Positions 10,599 to 55,557 of a DNA stretch of 64,000 bases are shown here, one piece after another. Source of the DNA: Flagellatimonas centrodinii (GTDB lineage: Bacteria; Pseudomonadota; Gammaproteobacteria; Nevskiales; Nevskiaceae); the NCBI RefSeq assembly GCF_016918765.2, contig NZ_CP092104.1, positions 1,116,001 to 1,180,000 of the forward strand, written 5' to 3'. The notes under the pieces are model-generated. The model did no database searches. It was not told the DNA's origin and saw nothing but the letters and a program-made list of their open reading frames with translations. The position numbers and the translations under genes are program-made. Within the stretch, counting starts at the first letter, position 1. Each line of letters starts with the position of its first letter.

Positions 10599-12944
10599 TC
10601 AGGCCCCTTGCCGTCGTTCGCGGAAGAACCAGGCACCCAGCGCGGGCAGCAGGCAGATGGCGCCGAGCATGTTGACCAGGAACATGAAGGCCAGCAGCAG
10701 GCCCATGTCGGCCTGGAACTTGAGGGCCGAGAACATCCAGGTGGCGACGCCCACCGACATGGTGACGGCGGTGAAGACCGCGGCGCTGCCACGTTCCACC
10801 ATGGCGCGCTCGAAGGCCTCGCGGAACTTCACGGTGGGGTCGGCCATGTGGTGCTGGATGCGCTCGAAGAGATACAGCCCGTAGTCCACACCGACACCGA
10901 CGCCGAGCGCGATGACCGGTAGCGTCGCCACCTTGAGCCCGATGTCGAGCATGGCCATGAGGCCGTTGCAGAGCACGCAGACCATGGTCAGCGGCACCAT
11001 CACGCACACCACCGCGATCCACGAGCGGAAGGTGACCAGGCAGAACAGCACCAGAGCGCCGAAGATCGACAGCAGCATGCGTGCCTCGGCGGCGCCCACG
11101 GCTTCGTTGGTGGCGGCCATGACGCCCACATTGCCGCTGGCCAGCCGCAGCTTGACGCCCTCCACCGGGTTGTCATTGATGAAGGTTTTCAATTCCTTCA
11201 TGGCATGAGCGATGGTGGCGCCTTCGTGATCTTTCATGAAGATCAGCACCTGGATCGCCTTGCAGCCTTCGGTGTTGAGGCCGAGGTTGGGGTCGAAGGC
11301 CTTGGAGCCGGTGGACAGGCCCACCTGGGTCCGCGGCAGTGCGGCCCACCGCGGATTGCCTTCGTTGAAGGCGGAGATCACCAGCTTGCCGACGCCGGCC
11401 ACGCTGATGACCGACTGCACGCCCTCGATACCGCGCACATAGAGCTCCAGACGGTCGAGCAGACCCACCACGTCGTGATGCAGGCAGGAGTCGCCCTCGA
11501 AATCCTGGGCTTCGGCGATCACGGTGAGCACGTCGACACCGATGTCGTAGCTGGAGGCGATCTTGGCGCTGTCACGGTTGTAGCGGGAATCGGCGTGTAA
11601 CTCGGGCACGCCCTGGCCGGTGTCGCCGATCACCAGGTTGCGGCTCTCCCAGGTGGCGGCGGCCAGCAGCGCCAGGCTGGCAGCAAACACGATGAGGGCA
11701 CAGCGCGGCTCGGCACAGGCCCCGATCATGCGGATGAGCTTGCTGCGGCCGCGTTGCTCGGCGCGCTCGGCGTGGGCGCGGCTGCTGTCTTCCAGCCGCA
11801 GGTGGCTGAGCAGAATGGGCAGGATCATCTTGTTGGTGATGATCATCAGCAACACGCCGAGACAGGCGGTGATGCCCAGTTCGTGCACGATGGGAATGTC
11901 GATGAACATGATCACGCCGAAGCCGAGGGCCTCGGTGAGCAGTGCCACGGCGCCGGGGATGAACAACTTGGTGAAGGCACCGTGAGCCGCTTCTGGTGCG
12001 CTCTTGCCGGTCATCACCTCGGCCCGCCAGGCGCTGGTCATCTGCACCGCATGCGACACACCGATGGAGAAGATCAGGAACGGCACCAGGATCGACATCG
12101 GGTCGATGCCGTAGCCGATCAGCGGCAGGATGCCGATCAGCCACAACACCGGCAGTGTCGCCACCACCAGCCCCACCACGGTGATCCGCACCGAGCGGGT
12201 GTACCAGTAGAGCAACACCACGGTGATGGCGAAGGCCAGGCCAAAGAAGGCGAAGACGCCGATCAGGCCCTTGATGACATCGCCCAGCAAGCGGGCGAAG
12301 CCAATGATGTTGACTTCGATGTTCTCGTTTTCAAACTGGGCGCGAATCTCTTCCAGCTTGTTCTGCACCTCCCAGTAGTCGACCTTCACGCCGGCTTCGG
12401 GGTCGTATTCATGCAGGTCGGCGCGGATCATCGCGCCCTTCAGGTCGGTCGCCACCAGCTGGCCGATCTGACCCGACAGCTCGACGTTCTTGCGTACCCG
12501 GTCCAATTCTTCGGGCGTGCCGGAATAACGCGCCGGCACCACCGGTTCACCGTTGAAGCCGGACTCGGTGATCTCGATGTAATAGACATCCGGCGTGAAG
12601 ATCGACGACACCTTGGTGCGGTTGATGCCGGGGATGAAGAACACTTCATCGGTGGCCTGGCGCAGGGCCTCCATGAACTCGGGGTTGTAAATGTCCCCCT
12701 CGCCGGTCCATCGCAAGTTCACCAGGATGGTATTGGCCCCGGAGAAGTCGTCCATGTAGGCCATCATGGTCTGCATGTATTCATGCTTGACCGGGATCAG
12801 CTTGAGGAAGCCGGGGTCCAGCCGCACCTGGGTGGCGCTGACGCCGAAGCCCAGGGTGACCAGCGCGAACAGTACCGCCAGGCTACGACGCCAGGCGATC
12901 AGGAAGTCGGCGCAGCGGTTAACGAAACGATCGGTGCGGCTCAT
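10599..12944 (-). CDS. RND/MMPL-superfamily transporter
   Basis: 781-aa inner-membrane protein with the two-fold repeat of MMPL/HpnN-type RND transporters. It has a first helix (about 17-36), a large periplasmic loop (VRLDPGFLKLIPVKHEYMQT onward), a bundle of five helices from about 225 to 390, a second loop, and a second bundle from about 640 to the end. MMPL proteins export lipids or other hydrophobic molecules from the inner membrane. Its ATG overlaps the stop of the YCF48-like gene (ATGA), so the two are translationally coupled; RND and YCF48-like genes commonly pair in hydrocarbon- and steroid-using proteobacteria. A promoter motif shared with the steroid operons precedes the pair (14102-14143), which supports a role in steroid handling. 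The substrate is inference. Confidence 0.85.
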   Translation of the reverse strand: MSRTDRFVNRCADFLIAWRRSLAVLFALVTLGFGVSATQVRLDPGFLKLIPVKHEYMQTMMAYMDDFSGANTILVNLRWTGEGDIYNPEFMEALRQATDEVFFIPGINRTKVSSIFTPDVYYIEITESGFNGEPVVPARYSGTPEELDRVRKNVELSGQIGQLVATDLKGAMIRADLHEYDPEAGVKVDYWEVQNKLEEIRAQFENENIEVNIIGFARLLGDVIKGLIGVFAFFGLAFAITVVLLYWYTRSVRITVVGLVVATLPVLWLIGILPLIGYGIDPMSILVPFLIFSIGVSHAVQMTSAWRAEVMTGKSAPEAAHGAFTKLFIPGAVALLTEALGFGVIMFIDIPIVHELGITACLGVLLMIITNKMILPILLSHLRLEDSSRAHAERAEQRGRSKLIRMIGACAEPRCALIVFAASLALLAAATWESRNLVIGDTGQGVPELHADSRYNRDSAKIASSYDIGVDVLTVIAEAQDFEGDSCLHHDVVGLLDRLELYVRGIEGVQSVISVAGVGKLVISAFNEGNPRWAALPRTQVGLSTGSKAFDPNLGLNTEGCKAIQVLIFMKDHEGATIAHAMKELKTFINDNPVEGVKLRLASGNVGVMAATNEAVGAAEARMLLSIFGALVLFCLVTFRSWIAVVCVMVPLTMVCVLCNGLMAMLDIGLKVATLPVIALGVGVGVDYGLYLFERIQHHMADPTVKFREAFERAMVERGSAAVFTAVTMSVGVATWMFSALKFQADMGLLLAFMFLVNMLGAICLLPALGAWFFRERRQGA

Positions 12945-14065
12945 GGCGCGGCTCCCGCAAGGGCTTGCACTTTCAGGCCCTGGTCACCGGCGGTGAGCAC
13001 CTGGCGGTCACCCAGCACCAGCACATCGGCGAGGTTGGCGCGGCCATCGGGCACCGCCGGCTGGAAGCTGCGGCCATCGTCATCGGAACGCCAGACGCTG
13101 TTGCTGGCACCCACCAGCACGATGCCGCCGTCGGCCAGCGGGGCACCGCCGAACAACGACAGGGTGCCGGGCACGGTGGCGGCAGACCAGCTGTCACCCC
13201 CGTCATCACTGCGGAACACGTTGCCACGCATGCCGAACACCAACAGCGCGTTCTGCGGCGTCACCAAGGTGCCGAAGAAGGAACCGGCATAGATCTCGTC
13301 GAGCCGGGTCCAGGTGTTGCCGCCATCGGCCGAGCGGGCCAGCAGCCCGCGTTCGCCCACCAGCAGCAAGCGGCCATCGGGCAAGCGGGTGAGGGCGTTG
13401 AGATGCAGGTCACCGATGCCCACTTCTTCCACAAAACCGGCAAACGGGTCATAGGGGTCGGCTTCGGCTGCGGGGGGGGCCGCCGTGTCGTCGTCGGTGG
13501 TGGCGGCAGCAGTCACTTCGACCAGCGGCTGCAAGGTCCAGCTCCGGCCTTCGTCGGTGGAAACCATGAACAGGCCGAAGGCGCCAAAGGCGAACAGCGT
13601 GCCGTCATAGGGGCCAGCCAGGCCCAGCAGGGGGTCGGCACGGTCGGTGTTGTAGTGCACCTCGGCCCAGGTTTGGCCGCCGTCTTCGCTGCGCACGATC
13701 CAGCCGTCGTGGCCGATCGCCACGGCCACCTTCGGGGAGACGAACTGCACCTGGGTGAAGGTGGATTCGCGCTGCGGCGTGACGGTGGCCTGTTGCCAGG
13801 GCCCCTCCACCGCGTCGGCGAACAGGATGTGGCCGAGTTCGCCGGCCGCCACCAGACGATCGCCGCTGGCCGCCACGCCGGTGACCAGCAGACCGTCCGG
13901 GCGCACTTCAGTGGGCGCGAACGGCGGCGGCGGGCGAATCGAGAACGAGTAGAGCGCCGCCAGAATCACCAGCGCCGCGATCACCAACGCGGGCCCCCCG
14001 CCGAGGACCGTAGGGGTATGGGTAGGGCGTTGCGCAGCTGCGCCGCCCGGCCTGTTGACCGACAT
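12941..14065 (-). CDS. YCF48-like/BNR-repeat protein, membrane anchored
   Basis: 374 aa. One N-terminal membrane helix (about 24-43, LGGGPALVIAALVILAALYS) anchors a periplasmic beta-propeller made of BNR/sortilin-like repeats, each with an S-x-D-x-G-x-T-W type box (RSEDGGQTWAEVH; STDEGRSWTLQ; RSADGGNTWTRL; RSDDGGDSWSAA; RSDDDGRSFQPA). The family takes its name from the photosystem II assembly factor YCF48, but in heterotrophs these genes accompany RND exporters and outer-membrane DUF1302/DUF1329 proteins. Here it is the first gene of a two-gene operon with the RND transporter. A likely role is a periplasmic partner of the exporter. A GGAG ribosome site precedes the ATG. Confidence 0.8.
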   Translation of the reverse strand: MSVNRPGGAAAQRPTHTPTVLGGGPALVIAALVILAALYSFSIRPPPPFAPTEVRPDGLLVTGVAASGDRLVAAGELGHILFADAVEGPWQQATVTPQRESTFTQVQFVSPKVAVAIGHDGWIVRSEDGGQTWAEVHYNTDRADPLLGLAGPYDGTLFAFGAFGLFMVSTDEGRSWTLQPLVEVTAAATTDDDTAAPPAAEADPYDPFAGFVEEVGIGDLHLNALTRLPDGRLLLVGERGLLARSADGGNTWTRLDEIYAGSFFGTLVTPQNALLVFGMRGNVFRSDDGGDSWSAATVPGTLSLFGGAPLADGGIVLVGASNSVWRSDDDGRSFQPAVPDGRANLADVLVLGDRQVLTAGDQGLKVQALAGAAP

Positions 14066-14101
14066 GGGGACCCTCTCCTCGAGTAACGTCGTTATGCCGC
14101 T

Positions 14102-14143
14102 TTTTTAGTCGATGCCCCGGGGCGAGACTTCGTCCGTTCGGTT
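14102..14143 (-). promoter_or_regulatory. Shared catabolic promoter motif (site D), RND/YCF48 operon
   Basis: On the minus strand, AACCGAACGGACGAAG (14143 to 14128) is followed after 20 nt by a -10-like TAAAAA (14107 to 14102). The block matches the site at 19162-19177 at 13 of 16 positions. The start codon at 14065 would give a leader of about 30 nt. No TTGACA-like -35 exists, which suggests an activator at about -41. Upstream it directly abuts a MITE-like element. Confidence 0.5.
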
Positions 14144-14145
14144 TA

Positions 14146-14288
14146 AGGAACCTCTGCACAACTGCTGCGCTCGGCATCTTGAGCGCCGGCGGTGCTCGGA
14201 ATGCTCATGTATTGCCACATACACTGCGCTTCCTGCGCTCCGGCGGCGCTAAACCTGCCTTCGCTCGCGACGTTGTGCAGAGGTTCCT
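14146..14288. mobile_element. MITE-like element with 17-bp perfect terminal inverted repeats
   Basis: The 143-bp element is bounded by AGGAACCTCTGCACAAC (14146-14162) and its exact reverse complement (14272-14288). It has no coding capacity of its own, as expected of a miniature inverted-repeat element mobilised in trans. Its left 40 nt recur at 31278-31320. No clear target duplication was seen. It fills most of the gap 14066-14315 between the YCF48-like gene and the thiolase gene. Confidence 0.7.
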
Positions 14289-14315
14289 GGCGATATCGAG
14301 GCTCCCTGCCCCCGC

Positions 14316-15518
14316 CTACCCCACCTCGAACAGCGACGCAGCCCCCATGCCGCCCCCGATGCACATGGTGACCACCACGTAGCGCACGCCGCGACGACGG
14401 CCTTCGATCAGGGCGTGCATCACCATGCGGGCGCCGGACATGCCGAAGGGATGGCCGATGGCAATGGCACCGCCGTTGACGTTGAGGCGGTCGGCCGGAA
14501 TCCCCAGTCGGTCGCGGCAGTAGATGACCTGGCAGGCGAAGGCCTCGTTGAGTTCCCACAGGCCGATGTCGGCCACCTTCAGCCCCTGCTGCTGCAGCAG
14601 GCGGGGAATGGCGAACACCGGGCCGATGCCCATTTCATCCGGCGAACAGCCGGCCACGGCGGTGCCGCGATACCGCCCCAGCGGGGTCAGGCCGCGGCGC
14701 TTGGCCTGGGCCGCGCTCATCACCGTGACCACGGCGGCGCCGTCGGACAACTGCGAGGCATTGCCGGCGGTGATGTGCTGGCCTTCCTTCACGAACTGGC
14801 CGTTCTTCCACACCGGCTTGAGGCCGTTCAGGCTTTCGAGGGTGGTCGACGGGCGGTTGCCTTCGTCCTGCGCCAGGGTGACGGCTTCGGTGCCGGTGGG
14901 ATTGCCTTCCTTGTCGAACAGCTGCTTGTGGCTTTCCAGCGGCACGATCTCGTCATTGAACCGGCCGGCGGCCTGGGCCTCGGCGGTCCGCTGCTGGCTT
15001 TGCAGGGCGTATTCATCCTGCGCCTGGCGGGAGATGCCATAACGTTCGGCCACCACCTCGGCGGTCTCGATCATCTGGATGTAGGCCTTGGGCTGCGCCG
15101 CCAGCACCGCCTCGGAGACAAAGCGATAGCTGTTCTTGTGCTTGTTCTGCACCAGCGAGATGGACTCCAGCCCGCCGGCGATGACGATGTCCTGCTCGCC
15201 GGCCAGAATGTTTTTGGCGCCGATGGCGATGCTCATCAGCCCGGAGGCGCACTGACGGTCCAGGGTCATGCCCGGCACCGTGTCCGGCAGCCCGCCGGTG
15301 TAGGCGCAGAGGCGGCCGAGGTTGTAGGCCTGGGTGCCCTGCTGGGCGGCGCAGCCGAGGATGACGTCATCCACTTCGCCGGGGTCGATGCCGGCGCGGG
15401 CAACAGCGGCACGCACCACATGCCCGCCGAGCACTGGCGCCTCGGTGTCGTTGAAGGCGCCGCGATAGGCCTTGCCGATGGGGGTGCGGGCAACCGAGAC
15501 GATGACGGCTTCGTTCAT
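14316..15518 (-). CDS. Thiolase (acetyl-CoA C-acyltransferase)
   Basis: 400 aa, the usual thiolase length. The acyl-binding Cys90 (LDRQCASGL), His356 ([12 protein letters not shown]) and the proton-transfer Cys386 (TMCIGGGMG) are all present. It catalyses the CoA-dependent cleavage of a beta-ketoacyl-CoA. It is the last gene of the operon starting at 19127 (fused acyl-CoA dehydrogenase, IpdF, MaoC hydratase, thiolase), so it should finish a beta-oxidation round on a steroid side chain or an opened ring product. It is a different subfamily from the FadA6-like thiolase at 22415. The exact substrate cannot be read from sequence. Confidence 0.9.
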
Positions 15519-19134: not shown

Positions 19135-19177
19135 ATTATCCCGGGTGCACCCCGGCAGGCTCTTCATCCGTTGGGGT
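19135..19177 (-). promoter_or_regulatory. Shared catabolic promoter motif (site A), fused ACAD operon
   Basis: On the minus strand, ACCCCAACGGATGAAG (19177 to 19162) is followed after 21 nt by GATAAT (19140 to 19135). The hexamer is 7 nt from the ATG at 19127, so transcription would begin at or next to the start codon. The motif centre lies near -41.5, the position of a class II activator site. It differs from site B (31261-31276) at one of 16 positions. Confidence 0.55.
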
Positions 19178-19259
19178 GATCGAAGGCTGCCGTTAAGCCG
19201 TTTTCTGACATGACCGGGACACGCCGACGTGCTACAACAATGGGCCTCAGGGACGTGCC

Positions 19260-30306: not shown

Positions 30307-31197
30307 TTAGCGGAACCCGACCGAGAAATCGTGACCCCAGATCGATACCTGCTTAGTCTGCGTGGTCTGCCAGGTGGCGGGGTCGACTTCGATACCGCCC
30401 CAGCCGTACTCAAGGGCGAAGTTGCCGGGCGTCGCCATGTAGAACGACGTCATGCGATCGTTCTCGTGCTCGCCAAGGGTGGCCATCAGCTTCACCTCGG
30501 CCTTCTCGCGACGGTCGTAGGCCTTGCCGACGTCAGTGAGCTGATCGACCTCGAGCATGGCGTGCACACAGCCGGACGGGCTCGGCATCTCGGCCAGTGC
30601 CAGGCTGTGGTGACGGCCACTGGCGCCGTGGAGGAAGTAGATGCGCATCACCGGCGCATCCGGGCCAGGTTGGAAATTGAAGACATCCGACAGCCCCATG
30701 CCGAACACCTCGGTAAACAGCTTGAGGGTGGCATCGAAGTGCGCCGGCGCCGGCAACACGGTGTGCCCCATGCCGAACTTGCCGGTCACAAAGCCGTTGA
30801 CGCCGATGGGCGAGACGAACGGCGTGTCGTCACCGGCATACCCGGTGACCAGCTCGTGACGGTTGCCATCGGGGTCGGCGAACACGGCCAGCCGCCGGAA
30901 CCCTCGGGCCGTGGCCAGCCCACCCTCTTCGCGAGCCGCGACGCCGGCCGCAGCCAGTGCCTGCAGTGCGGTGTCGAATGCGGCGTCATCGGCCACTTCC
31001 CAGCCGGAGGCGACGTAGCGGTCGGCATCACCGGCGACCACGTGGATGCGGGCATCGCGGCGGTCGACCTTGACGCCGACGCCGCCGTCGGCCCGCGGCA
31101 TCACCATGGCGCCAAGCGTCTGCTCGCCATACTGCTGCCAGCGGGCGGCGTCGGTGGTTTCGGCCACGATGTAGGCCAGAGCCTGAATGATCGGCAT
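30307..31197 (-). CDS. HsaC/TesB-like extradiol ring-cleavage dioxygenase
   Basis: 296-aa two-domain vicinal-oxygen-chelate protein. The C-terminal domain keeps the Fe(II) triad: His145 (FGMGHTVLP), His196 or His197 (SGRHHSLALAE) and Glu263 (NFALEYGWGG). The C-terminus SIWGHDFSVGFR is shared with HsaC and TesB, which cleave 3,4-DHSA, the catechol made from steroid rings A/B. It is the first gene of the ten-gene operon, so a ring A/B step is co-expressed with ring C/D enzymes. The hydrolase (HsaD/TesD) and monooxygenase (HsaA/B) normally beside it are not in the window. ATG 31197 has a GAGGGG site; the open frame to 31266 would start inside the promoter. Confidence 0.85.
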   Translation of the reverse strand: MPIIQALAYIVAETTDAARWQQYGEQTLGAMVMPRADGGVGVKVDRRDARIHVVAGDADRYVASGWEVADDAAFDTALQALAAAGVAAREEGGLATARGFRRLAVFADPDGNRHELVTGYAGDDTPFVSPIGVNGFVTGKFGMGHTVLPAPAHFDATLKLFTEVFGMGLSDVFNFQPGPDAPVMRIYFLHGASGRHHSLALAEMPSPSGCVHAMLEVDQLTDVGKAYDRREKAEVKLMATLGEHENDRMTSFYMATPGNFALEYGWGGIEVDPATWQTTQTKQVSIWGHDFSVGFR

Positions 31198-31234: not shown

Positions 31235-31276
31235 ATTATCAGAACGCGAGGGTGGCGAGGCTTCACCCGTTGGGGT
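31235..31276 (-). promoter_or_regulatory. Shared catabolic promoter motif (site B), ten-gene steroid operon
   Basis: On the minus strand, ACCCCAACGGGTGAAG (31276 to 31261) precedes GATAAT (31240 to 31235) by 20 nt. With the ATG at 31197 the leader would be about 30 nt and includes the GAGGGG ribosome site. Block and spacing match sites A, D and E. Its upstream edge is 1 nt from the partial MITE-like copy at 31278. Confidence 0.55.
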
Positions 31277-31277
31277 T

Positions 31278-31320
31278 AGGGAACCTCGGCACAAGGACTG
31301 CGCTCGGCATCTTGAGCGAC
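31278..31320. mobile_element. Partial copy of the MITE-like element
   Basis: This stretch repeats the left ~40 nt of the element at 14146-14288 (AGGGAACCTCGGCACAAG, then the shared TGCGCTCGGCATCTTGAGCG). The right terminal repeat is absent: the element stops near 31320, before site E. It sits between the two divergent steroid promoters. Confidence 0.6.
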
Positions 31321-31357
31321 GACGCGCGATGCGCCTGCGGTCACTGCGCGTCGGATC

Positions 31358-31398
31358 ACCTGAACGGACGAAGATTCGGCGCGGCGATGGCGAATAAT
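31358..31398 (+). promoter_or_regulatory. Shared catabolic promoter motif (site E), KstD-like gene
   Basis: ACCTGAACGGACGAAG (31358-31373) is followed after 19 nt by AATAAT (31393-31398). It differs from site A at 3 of 16 positions and shares GATCACC just upstream with it. The -10 falls after the first ATG (31387) of the flavoprotein frame, so if used, translation must begin at ATG 31435. Confidence 0.5.
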
Positions 31399-31434: not shown

Positions 31435-33120
31435 ATGGCCCCTTCCCCCGACGTCCGGACGCCCGATGGCGTTCTTCCCGTGGACGCGCCGCTGGCCATC
31501 CCGCAACCCGACAGCTTCGACTGGGACGATCAGTGTGACGTCCTGGTGGTGGGCTTTGGCGCCGCCGGCGGCGCCGCCGCACTGACCGCCAGGGCCAACG
31601 GTGCCGATGTCCGCATTGCCGAGCGCTTTGACGGCGGCGGCGCCACCATCAAGAGCGGTGGTGTCGTCTATCTCGGCGGCGGCACTCGCTACCAGCGGGA
31701 AGCCGGCTACGAGGACACGCCGGAGGCAATGTTCAACTATCTGCGTCAGGAGTGCGGCGACGCCGTCAGCGAGGACACCCTGCGCGCCTTCTGCGAGGGC
31801 AGCCTGGAAATGCTGGCCTGGCTCGAGAGCCTGGGCGTGCAGTTCAGCTCGCACCCGGCGCCGCCGAAGACCTCGTATCCGCCCAACGGGACCTACCTGT
31901 ATTACTCCGGCAGCGAAACCGCACCGACCTTCGCCGCCGAGGCCAAGCCGGCCCCACGCGGGCACCGGGTGAAAGCACCGGGCATCGACTCCGGCCGTGA
32001 ATTGTTTGCCGTGCTGCGTCGGCAGGTTGACCAGCAGGGCATTCCGGTGATGCGTCAGACCAGCGTGCGGCGACTGATCACCGGGGTCGGCGGCCGCATC
32101 ATCGGCGCCGAGCTCTGGCAGCTGCCGCCAGGTTCCGCCGCCCAGTTGAAACACCAGAAGCTGATGCGCAGCGCCGAGAAATGGCACAACGTGGCGCCGG
32201 CCAAGGCCGACCGCCTGCGGGCCGAAGCGCGCGCGCTGGAGCTCACCGAAGCCAAGCCGCTGCGATTGCGGGCCCGGCGCGGCGTGGTGCTGGCCACCGG
32301 CGGCTTCATCTTCAACCGGCAGATGGTGACCGAACACGCGCCCAACTACCTGCCAGCCATGCGGCTCGGCGCCACCGGCTGTGATGGCAGCGGCATTCGT
32401 CTTGGCCAATCCGTGGGCGGAGCGGTACAGCGGATGGAAAAAGGTTCGGCGTGGCGCTTCATCAACCCGCCGACGGCCTGGCCGCGCGGCGTGGTCGTCA
32501 ACCAGCAGGGCCAGCGCTTCTGCAACGAACAGGTGTACGGCGCCCGCCTCGGGGTGGCGATGGTCGATGGTCAGGGCGGCAAGGCCTGGCTGATTCTCGA
32601 CAAGGCGCTGCGCTGGAAGGCAATTCGCGAAGCCCTGTCGGGCAAGCTGTGGTTCTTCCAGAGTGTGCCCGCCTTTTTCATGATGCTGTTCGCACCCCGC
32701 GCCCGGACACTGACAGCGCTGGCGGAGAAGATCGGACTTCCGGCTGCCGCACTTGAGCAGACCGTGACGCGCTACACCGCAGATGCCCACAGCGGTGCCA
32801 CCGATGCACTGCAAAAGGCGGATGACATGCGCGCACCGCTGGATACCCCGCCGTACTACGCGCTCAACATCTCGGCCGACAGCCGCAGCTTTCCCTGCCC
32901 GACCATCACGCTTGGCGGCTTGCGCGTGCGCGAAGCTGATGGCGCGGTGCTGGATGGCCGTGGCCAGCCGTTGCCGGGGCTCTATGCCGCCGGCCGTGCC
33001 GCGGTCGGCGTCGCCTCCAACGGCTATGTCAGCGGGCTGTCGCTGGCCGACTGCCTGTTTTCCGGTCGCCGCGCCGGGCGTTGCGCAGCCGCCACCGAAC
33101 ACCAGGCACACGCGGCCTGA
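31435..33120 (+). CDS. KstD-like FAD-dependent 3-ketosteroid dehydrogenase family protein
   Basis: 561 aa from ATG 31435 (577 from ATG 31387). The N-terminal Rossmann motif DVLVVGFGAAGGAAALTARA binds FAD; IKSGGVVYLGGGTRYQ and VVLATGGFIFNRQM are typical of the FAD_binding_2/fumarate reductase family that includes 3-ketosteroid dehydrogenases. The C-terminal flavin motif LYAAGRAAVGVASNGYVSGL lacks the Tyr-x-x-x-Gly arrangement (RTYPGPG) of true KstD Delta1-enzymes, so it may be a different steroid desaturase or reductase. Start 31435 is preferred because the predicted promoter overlaps the earlier ATG; neither has a good ribosome site. It probably forms an operon with the SDR and the FadD3-like ligase. 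A very long open frame in the same phase extends upstream to 29461 but is antisense to ipdA and hsaC. Confidence 0.78.
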   Translation: MAPSPDVRTPDGVLPVDAPLAIPQPDSFDWDDQCDVLVVGFGAAGGAAALTARANGADVRIAERFDGGGATIKSGGVVYLGGGTRYQREAGYEDTPEAMFNYLRQECGDAVSEDTLRAFCEGSLEMLAWLESLGVQFSSHPAPPKTSYPPNGTYLYYSGSETAPTFAAEAKPAPRGHRVKAPGIDSGRELFAVLRRQVDQQGIPVMRQTSVRRLITGVGGRIIGAELWQLPPGSAAQLKHQKLMRSAEKWHNVAPAKADRLRAEARALELTEAKPLRLRARRGVVLATGGFIFNRQMVTEHAPNYLPAMRLGATGCDGSGIRLGQSVGGAVQRMEKGSAWRFINPPTAWPRGVVVNQQGQRFCNEQVYGARLGVAMVDGQGGKAWLILDKALRWKAIREALSGKLWFFQSVPAFFMMLFAPRARTLTALAEKIGLPAAALEQTVTRYTADAHSGATDALQKADDMRAPLDTPPYYALNISADSRSFPCPTITLGGLRVREADGAVLDGRGQPLPGLYAAGRAAVGVASNGYVSGLSLADCLFSGRRAGRCAAATEHQAHAA

Positions 33121-48187: not shown

Positions 48188-48906
48188 GGTTTCGCCCTGC
48201 TGGGCGAGGCACCTTTCTTTGCTTGTGCAAAGAAGCCCCCGCACGACTCGGAGCGTGCGAAGCACGTTGGAGCGGGAGTGCGGGTGTGCGGCTGCATCTC
48301 GCTTGGGCACGGGGGGCGGCGTCTGCCCCCGCACCCATGCTTCGCAACACCGTGGGGCAGCCGCCCCCAAAGAAAGCACGCCCCGAGGCGTGGACTGCGG
48401 ATACATCGTGGTGCTGGCCATCCTGGCGAGCCGTCGGTGCACGAGCCAACCCCAGCCCGGACGTCCATGTCCGGCCGTTCACCCCGTCAGCGAGCGATGC
48501 TCGCAAAGCGACGGGGTTCACCCTGCGCTGCTCACGTGCTCGGGGTCGGTCTGAGACGACATCCTTGTCGTCGCATCCCTCAGCCGGACATCGTGTCCGG
48601 CTGACCCCTGTGCGCGCTGCGCTGCTCGGTCCACGCCAAGGGGCCCCAGAAGCAAAAAGCGTCCCGGTCCGGTCGCTGTGGCTTTTCGTCCCGTTAGAGG
48701 GCGCCGGACGGTCTGACGAGCGCAGGGGAGAGCGGGACACGATGTCCCGCTCAGGGCCAGCGCGGCAGGAGCCGCTTTGGCCCGGCCCCGAGCACGGCAG
48801 AGCGGCCGGGGACCGGCGAAGCCGGCGCCCTCTCCGGGTGCCCTTTCTTTTCGTCTCTTTTCTTTGGGCACGCAAAGAAAAGGGACCCGCCCAGCAGGGC
48901 GGAACC
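48188..48906. mobile_element. Non-coding 719-bp element with 48-nt imperfect terminal inverted repeats
   Basis: 48188-48235 and the reverse complement of 48859-48906 match at 39 of 48 positions by manual alignment, both starting GGTT(T/C)CGCCCTGCTGGGCG. Each end holds its own hairpin (TTCTTTGC 48215-48222 with GCAAAGAA 48227-48234; CTTTTCTTTG 48857-48866 with CAAAGAAAAG 48873-48882). The interior has overlapping open frames in all phases, which is typical of GC-rich non-coding DNA, and further palindromes such as CAGCCGGACA/TGTCCGGCTG and GAGCGGGACA/TGTCCCGCTC. No transposase is present. It could be a non-autonomous transposon or two opposed copies of a dispersed repeat. Confidence 0.55.
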
Positions 48907-53594: not shown

Positions 53595-54746
53595 ATGGTT
53601 CGCCCCCGAAGCTTCGCGCTGTACTGCGCCCTGATCGTGTCGGCCTGCGGTGGCGACGAAACTGCCGCCCCCCATGGACTGGACGCGCGCGAGGCACCGG
53701 TTTCGGTGGCCTTCACTGCCAACACCGGCGCCGATGCCGACGTCGCGGTGGTCAACGCCTACCCGCAGTTGCAGTTCGACCGCCCGGTGGACTTTGCCGA
53801 AGTGCCGGGCAGCAATCACGCGGTGGTGGTGGAACACCCCGGCCGCATCCGGGTGTTCGCCCGCGACAGCACCACCATCCACACGGACCTGTTCGCCGAT
53901 CTCAGCGACCGCGTGCGTTTCGACAACAACGAGCAGGGGCTGGTGCGTATCGCCTTCGACCCGGACTACGCCAACACCGGCCGGCTCTACCTCGCCTATG
54001 CCGGTCGGCAGGCCGACGACCCGGCGCGCTGCGCACCGCTGTGTTCGGTGCTGTCGCGGTTCACGCACGTCCCCGGCAACCCGCTGCTGCTGGACCCGGC
54101 CAGCGAAACCCGGCTGATCGTGCTGCCGCAGCCGGGCGAAGGTCACAACATCGGCAACCTGCTGTTCGGCGCGGATGGTTATCTCTACGTCGGTGTCGGC
54201 GACGGCGGCTTCTCGTTCACCCCCTACGTCAACGCCCAGGATCGCACCACCCTCTACGGTAGCGTGCTGCGGCTGGACGTCGCCGGCGACGGTGCCTACG
54301 CGGTGCCGCCCGACAACCCCTTTGTCGGCGTCGGCAACGAGGTCGCCGGCGTGGTCGGCGCCGGCCAGCCAGTGCGTGAGGAGATCTGGGCGTTCGGCCT
54401 GCGCAATCCGCACCGCTTCAGTATCGACCCGGTCACCGGCACGATGTGGCTGGCCGACGTCGGCCAGTCGGCACGCGAGGAGGTGAACCGGATCACCCCC
54501 GGTGGCAACTACGGGTGGCCGGCCTACGAGGGCGAGATTTCGCAGGGGCGCAGCGACATCGGCCGCGACGACAGCGCCTACCGTGCGCCGGTGCTGACCT
54601 ATCCGCGCAGCGATGGCAGTTCAATCACTGGCGGACTGGTCTATCGCGGCAACCAGTTGCCACAATTGCGGGGGCGCTACCTGTTCACCGACTACGTCAG
54701 CGGCACGCTGTGGTCACTGGACCCGGCGACGGGTTCTACCCCGTAA
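53595..54746 (+). pseudogene. PQQ-dependent sugar dehydrogenase-like lipoprotein, 3' end lost at IS3
   Basis: 383 codons. It starts with a lipoprotein signal (ALIVSACGGDE, lipobox Cys18) and then a six-bladed propeller of the soluble glucose dehydrogenase type: PGRIRVFARD, NNEQGLVRIAFDPDYANTG, GEGHNIGNLLFGADGYLYVG, WAFGLRNPHRFSIDPVTG and GGNYGWPAYEGE. The frame enters the left end of the IS at 54730 and meets a stop (54744-54746) within it, so the final blade is missing. The sequence beyond the IS does not continue the gene, so the 3' part was deleted or moved. Possibly non-functional, although most blades remain. Confidence 0.82.
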
Positions 54747-55557
54747 CCACGGACGGTTTGGAAAGAGCTGAAAACTTCTGATCCTGCTTGGCGACTCTAC
54801 GCCGCATTCTCGGGTTGTGGAATCGCTCGATGTAGTCGAACACATCCGCCTTGGCGACATCGAGCGTCGGATACTTCACACGGTGCGTGCGCTCCCGCTT
54901 GAGCATGCCGAAGAAGCCCTCGCAGGCAGCGTTGTCTCCGCAATGGCCAACGGCACTCATTGAGCACAGCAGCGTGTTCCTGGTCAGATAGCGTTGATAG
55001 TCACTGCTGCGGAATTGGCTGCCGCGATCCGAATGTAGGATCACTGACCATCCGCCCTGACGTTGCCAGATCGCCATTTCGACGGCCCGGATCACCATCT
55101 GACGGTCCTGCCGGTGATGCATCGACCACCCGATCACGAGCTTGCTGAACAGGTCGAGGACGACGCATAGATACAGCTTGCCCTCGTCGGTTTTGATCTC
55201 GGTGATGTCGGTCACCCACTTGGTCTCGGGCTCCAAAGCATTGAAATCCCGCTCCAGCAGATTGCGCACGCCAGGTGGCGGCAGCCCCGGCTGACCGCGC
55301 GGGCCGCGCCGTTTCCTGCGCGGCCAGCCCTGCACGCCGTGCAGCGCCATCAGGCGAGCCACGCGATTGACGCTGGCAGTCTCACCTTCTTCGGCAAGAT
55401 CCTCCTGCATGCGAGGCGCACCCAGAACGCCACGGCTGTCTTCGTGAAGCTCACGGATGCGTGCAAGCAGTCGATCGTTGTCGACCTGACGTGCGCTGGG
55501 CTGGCGCGTACTCCAGCCGTAATAACCGCTCGGCGACACCCGCAGGCAGCGGCACAT
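54736..55557 (-). CDS. IS3-family transposase OrfB (integrase catalytic domain)
   Basis: 273 aa from ATG 55557, but expected to be made as an OrfAB fusion. The DDE core is intact: [20 protein letters not shown] (first Asp), [13 protein letters not shown] (second Asp) and [16 protein letters not shown] (Glu). A HTH_21-like N-terminal region ([15 protein letters not shown]) begins before the ATG, since the frame is open back to the slippery site at 55644-55650 and reads [15 protein letters not shown] there. Its stop lies inside the terminal inverted repeat, as in many IS3 members. Probably active. Confidence 0.9.

Follow-up and report, generated by a model that had tools for sequence, protein, structure and literature searches.

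A putative IS5-type mini-transposon abuts two predicted operators in a gene cluster of Flagellatimonas centrodinii

Introduction

Small palindromic repeats found in intergenic regions near promoters are known in prokaryotes as Correia and other MITEs, and the element described here resembles them in both respects, judging from the accessible part of one report (PMC10969869). In Correia-type MITEs, according to the same part of that report, the regulatory site lies inside the element, whereas here the predicted operator lies outside the element and is also present without it. Another close example is IS5 at glpFK of Escherichia coli. As far as the accessible text of two reports tells (PMC4117983, PMC5493358), insertion there takes place at a single YTAR near regulator sites, and the IS5-type insertions described below have the same setting. 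However, the glpFK case concerns a full IS5, and the elements here are MITEs known from their sequence. YTAR is the reported target of IS5 in the accessible text of PMC10359306. The MITE is like IS5-group insertion sequences in its 4-bp YTAR-like target duplication and differs from them in having no transposase gene. Among the literature matches listed, the titles, abstract openings and open papers contain no description of this element or this operator.

The window analyzed here is a whole stretch of 64,000 nucleotides (contig NZ_CP092104.1, positions 1,116,001 to 1,180,000) of the F. centrodinii genome, and all coordinates without a contig name refer to it. A preliminary description of the window placed a MITE-like element against a shared promoter motif at two loci and offered two explanations: either the element targets the motif, or the motif moves along with the element and thereby extends membership of the regulon.

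Predicted operators and their genes

In a whole-genome pattern search, the motif CTTCRYCCGTTSRG has four exact matches in the 3.6-Mb genome, all within the window, at 14128, 19162 and 31261 on the plus strand and at 31360 on the minus strand; the reversed-pattern control has none. With one mismatch allowed, 33 matches appear in the genome against 24 in the control, so that near-matches outside the window barely exceed chance. The motif sits within a 19-bp near-palindromic site with a consensus near CTTCAYCCGTTGGGGTGAG. At sites A, B and C, a -10 box whose gene-strand sequence is close to GATAATCC lies 19-21 nt away in the direction of the gene. No such box matches at the usual distance from site D, which has only a weak -10-like stretch, CTAAAAAAGC. 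The conserved site and its near-fixed spacing to the -10 box are those of a predicted operator common to one regulon. The sites and their surroundings are as follows.

12941..14065, minus strand: YCF48/BNR-like gene (Pfam), downstream of operator D
14128..14146, plus strand: predicted operator D, CTTCGTCCGTTCGGTTTAA; the minus-strand gene that it precedes starts at 14065
14146..14288, plus strand: full copy of the putative IS5-type MITE, with 17-bp perfect terminal inverted repeats
14316..15518, minus strand: thiolase gene (Pfam), upstream of the element and in the same direction
19162..19180, plus strand: predicted operator A, upstream of a minus-strand acyl-CoA dehydrogenase gene; without the element
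30307..31197, minus strand: BphC-like extradiol dioxygenase gene (Pfam; probable start at 31197), under operator B
31261..31279, plus strand: predicted operator B, CTTCACCCGTTGGGGTTAG, which precedes the BphC-like gene (minus strand)
31280..31324, plus strand: left-end fragment of the putative MITE, 45 bp, immediately past operator B (BLAST and alignment)
31355..31373, minus strand: predicted operator C, upstream of a plus-strand FAD dehydrogenase gene; without the element
31435..33120, plus strand: FAD-binding 3-ketosteroid-dehydrogenase-like gene under operator C (probable start, from the onset of similarity in relatives)

The BphC-like and FAD dehydrogenase genes diverge around the B/C gap. 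The Pfam results suggest that the gene cluster resembles a steroid-degradation cluster, a name given on family resemblance. No DNA-binding regulator was found among the 50 window ORFs scanned with Pfam. Operator D is most similar to C (13/14), followed by A (12/14) and B (11/14). The final four bases of operator B, TTAG (31276-31279), are the sole YTAR of the B/C intergenic region, and those of operator D, TTAA (14143-14146), are the YTAR at the left junction of the element.

The element at operators D and B

As the preliminary description had it, 17-bp perfect inverted ends (14146-14162 and 14272-14288) bound a 143-bp element beside site D. The left-half copy that it placed beside site B, at 31278-31320, was also recovered, with a slightly different extent: positions 31280-31324 are 87% identical to the left 45 bp of the D element (E = 1e-8). 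Around both, 14121-14191 aligns without gaps to 31254-31324, with 59 of 71 positions identical. The homology is therefore unbroken, as had been noted, and its length of 71 bp makes the earlier figure of about 58 nt somewhat short. The element starts at an equal offset from the motif and has the same orientation at both loci; the gaps of 2 nt at D and 1 nt at B given earlier reflect how the motif was defined, and the adjacency itself stands. The homology extends beyond both element and operator, where GGCGAG is identical, and outside the alignment the two loci seem unrelated over the adjoining 31 nt to the left and 40 nt to the right. The promoter-side 8 nt of the operators match at 6 of 8 positions between B and D, a level that 0.7-1.1% of the 8-mers in the window reach.

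The D element is flanked by TTAA on the left and TGGC on the right, which agree at one of four positions, and thus has no target duplication. A 5-bp direct repeat, GGCGA, brackets operator and element together at D, one copy lying past the right end of the element. The B fragment matches the D element at 39 of 45 positions and another genomic copy, L002, equally well (39/45).

At D the element sits between the thiolase and YCF48 genes, inside a run of genes on the same strand. Folded as RNA, its minus strand forms a single long hairpin (-82 kcal/mol, z = -8.07), the stability of which was equalled in 0 of 200 shuffles. This hairpin could alter read-through between thiolase and YCF48, and operator D could supply the downstream genes with a transcription start of their own. 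The right half of the D element (14207-14283) resembles the Rfam family RF02228, sX9, over the full length of the model; at E <= 1, Rfam has no other match in 13900-14500. Matches to sX9 were also obtained at two of three loci, L004 and L001, and at 5 of 12 further loci, but all score 29.5-39.5 bits, below the gathering score of 44. sX9 is an sRNA family of Xanthomonas. The single Rfam match of the window at gathering scores is TwoAYGGAY (48542-48607, minus strand; 47.7 bits against a gathering score of 43), far from the element. A transposase gene with rve and HTH_21 domains, which we take to be IS3-like, lies on the minus strand at 54736-55557.

Element family and relationship to IS5

BLAST searches place the element at 11 places in its own genome (E <= 0.01); these come from 14 matches, one of which is the other strand of the palindrome and two of which are second halves of split copies. 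The element was matched in at least 36 of 61 genomes, its own included, a lower bound since up to 14 candidates were scored per genome. Two-ended copies span 62-248 bp. In two of the own-genome copies, 207-bp versions (L002, G000:C1:1269773-1269979; L003, 1626305-1626512), a hairpin is inserted around TCAGGCACACGGATGTGCCTGA, and this hairpin also occurs near L007. Two other copies are cores lacking the ends (L005, G000:C1:1654077-1654187; L004, 2311260-2311370) and are located just before 23S rRNA. Their flanks are identical and include the 23S rRNA start; Rfam finds 16S, two tRNAs and 23S around L004, and L005 is placed by the identical flanks alone.

Flanks were compared for 25 two-ended copies, that is, 50 ends. 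The base at -4 is Y in 42, at -3 T in 30, at -2 A in 37 and at -1 R in 48 of them, and exact YTAR at all four positions is present at 16 of 50 ends. The two flanks share at least three of four bases in 14 of the 25 copies, against a mean of 5.9 after shuffling (0 of 2000 shuffles reach 14); the other 11 copies share fewer. The ends of the MITE, GGAACCTCTGCACAA, are of the same type as IS5-group ends, namely GGAAACACTGATCAA of an insertion sequence in its own genome, GGATCATCTGCAAAACC in the congener G001 and GGAACATCTGAACAAG in G011. At three of the 30 PF05598 (transposase) loci examined, two in G001 (L295 and L301) and one in G011 (L290), related ends with YTAR-like flanks are paired at a distance of 1.19-1.21 kb. 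The remaining loci have single related ends in some cases and elsewhere no pair or chance pairs. The own genome has 11 PF05598 copies over the cutoff, and the right end GGAAACACTGATCAA is present in 7 of them, followed by YTAR in 7 of 7.

An autonomous parent with identical ends was sought as pairs of 15-bp ends about 1 kb apart with at most two mismatches, and none was found in the own genome. Exact pairs of element ends at this distance are also absent from the 61 genomes, where the sole pair (G047) is 273 bp across. The related inverted ends, the YTAR-like duplication at the level of the family and the dispersed, short, transposase-less copies are those of IS5-group MITEs. Because of its YTAR-like flanks, target duplication and related IS5-type ends, the element is best called an IS5-type MITE, and it is presumably mobilized in trans by an IS5-group transposase.

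Landing sites in the window

YTAR occurs at 51 places in the window, once in the B/C gap (31276) and twice in the D gap outside the element (14105 and 14143). Between 12.9 and 31.3 kb there are nine such places, of which four lie in ORFs or stop codons, one inside the element and four in other non-coding DNA (14105, 14143, 19193 and 31276). Two of these last four are the element junctions. Counting both strands, the window contains 1597 occurrences of the looser TNAR, and several lie within the B/C and D gaps. Since other sites are used and TNAR is commoner, a shortage of exact YTAR accounts for only part of the constraint; scarcity is strong for exact YTAR alone.

Elements without operators and operators without elements

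The motif is present at 2 of the 11 element places in the own genome, B and D. At the other nine, no operator-like site scoring above 9 was found within about 150 bp. Conversely, two of the four motif sites, A and C, have no element. Across 85 genomes of the order, the exact junction of operator and element, searched as the TTAR form of B and D, occurs at B and D only. The 84 other genomes have 0 exact matches and, with one mismatch, which admits one other base, 7 matches against 29 in the reversed-pattern control. Operators were also scored at 78 element loci, which partly overlap and therefore represent fewer than 78 distinct places, and a weak operator-like match (12.2, L217) appears about 200 bp from an element. 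The nine operator-free places, the junction counts and the clusters of relatives described next rule out that the element generally carries the motif. The check proposed in the preliminary description, that the motif should stand beside every genomic copy, thus came out against transport of the motif.

Scanned with a matrix of site and -10 box, the 20 cluster stretches from 11 relatives yielded 34 matches, against 2 when the sequence was reversed; the count is partly circular because the matrix was partly seeded with sites of this kind. Sites A and B/C have counterparts by position in these clusters. In the thiolase-YCF48 gap that corresponds to site D, 19 of 20 relatives sharing this gene order have no site scoring above 9. 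The corresponding gap of G009 (L185) has an operator-like site scoring 16.1 in the opposite orientation, against 17.0 for D itself; 0 of 652,602 reversed-sequence positions score above 16. Operator D seems to be new here. The alignments give no support for a decayed copy of it in G001: the operator region alone aligns no better than shuffles (1039 of 2000 reach its score), although the whole empty-site D gap aligns to the G001 gap better than most shuffles do (31 of 2000 reach that score).

Since genome-wide counts are lower bounds, the clusters of relatives were rechecked by BLAST with nine element copies as queries. The element is absent from the 20 stretches, the best matches being 16-25 bp long with E >= 0.01. 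Operators with a TTAR arm and no element are found in G019 (L171) and G037 (L180). In G001 (L167:3155-3216) and G015 (L173, about 14130-14185), another palindromic repeat, distinct from the element, extends up to the outer edge of operator C; it has five matches in each of these genomes and none in the own genome.

Origin of the two junctions

The reading that we favor, with a probability of about 0.5, is that the adjacency at B and D arose by two separate landings at YTAR-containing arms of operators that lie outside the element. A non-autonomous IS5-type MITE would insert at a YTAR-like tetranucleotide and duplicate it, and the promoter-distal operator arms, TTAG at B and TTAA at D, would serve as targets. 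Non-coding YTAR being rare in the GC-rich cluster, the element would have few places to land, the operator arms among them. Since insertion duplicates its target, the 19-bp operator, and at B also the -10 box, would stay intact, and insertion would be tolerated, presumably through selection, because the operator is left whole. The landing at B would be the older one, later trimmed to 45 bp, and that at D would still be complete.

These two landings agree with the YTAR-like flank consensus and target duplications across the 25 copies, with elements at two of the four non-coding YTAR places, and with IS5-type elements bearing related ends in the own genome, G001 and G011. The lack of an operator at the other nine places and the TTAR-armed operators of relatives without an element also speak for them. 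However, copy D has no matching target duplication (although 11 of the 25 copies likewise share fewer than three of four bases), exact YTAR is found at just 16 of 50 ends while TNAR is common, both elements have the same orientation, and the promoter-side 8 nt match at 6 of 8 positions. Because operator D is absent in 19 of 20 relatives, the two-landing reading also requires that it predates the landing. Two landings on operator arms are a priori unlikely (1e-5 to 1e-4 by a rough, non-computed estimate, for a pattern chosen after the fact). The adjacency is most likely mostly ordinary, an operator edge being among very few usable landing sites there. The targeting of the motif proposed in the preliminary description survives only in a weak sense, as YTAR-like sites are targeted and the operator arm is a YTAR.

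A second reading, possible but less probable, is one landing at an operator edge, after which a patch of operator and element end was copied over 17 kb to a second promoter, through template switching, gene conversion between element copies or transposition with 26 bp of flank. Copying from B to D would explain the new operator D, and copying from D to B the 45-bp fragment. The 71-bp gapless homology reaching beyond element and operator, with its identical GGCGAG, fits such copying, as do the common orientation, the missing target duplication and the GGCGA repeat at D, and the absence of operator D in 19 of 20 relatives when A and B/C have positional counterparts. On the other hand, operator D resembles C and A more closely than B, the B fragment is equally similar to L002 and to D, and a patch copied at random would have had to end up, correctly placed and oriented, ahead of a gene belonging to the same cluster. 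We regard as tentative, and as somewhat more doubtful than copying in general, the version in which a MITE inserted at the edge of an operator later took a copy of this operator, or templated one, into a second promoter of the same cluster. If true, the YCF48-MMPL genes gained an operator of their own that is missing in relatives, and a mini-transposon with its flank would have been captured at one step in rewiring a regulon.

It is improbable that a protein steers the element, with a regulator or melted promoter at the operator making its YTAR a hot spot. According to the accessible text of PMC4117983, GlpR/CRP binding controls the hopping of E. coli IS5 into a single CTAA that lies upstream of glpFK, and that of PMC5493358 proposes that IS5 prefers Py-T-A-Pu in easily melted DNA. 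By the former account, however, a bound regulator lowers IS5 hopping rather than attracting it, and the 34 operator matches in the clusters of relatives have no element. That operator and element form a mobile cassette by which further genes are routinely brought into the regulon, a form of the transport envisaged in the preliminary description, is very improbable and largely refuted, for the two identically laid-out junctions in one genome stand against an operator at none of the nine other places, no exact junction in 84 other genomes and fewer one-mismatch junctions than in the control.

Implications

The two junctions indicate that target preference and base composition can mimic recognition of a regulatory motif by a transposon. 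In GC-rich DNA, where YTAR is scarce, AT-containing operator arms would belong to the small set of landing sites, and duplicating the target would preserve the operator. From the comparison there also emerges a 19-bp predicted operator, conserved together with a -10 box in steroid-degradation-like clusters across a bacterial order; operator D itself is seemingly new in this genome.
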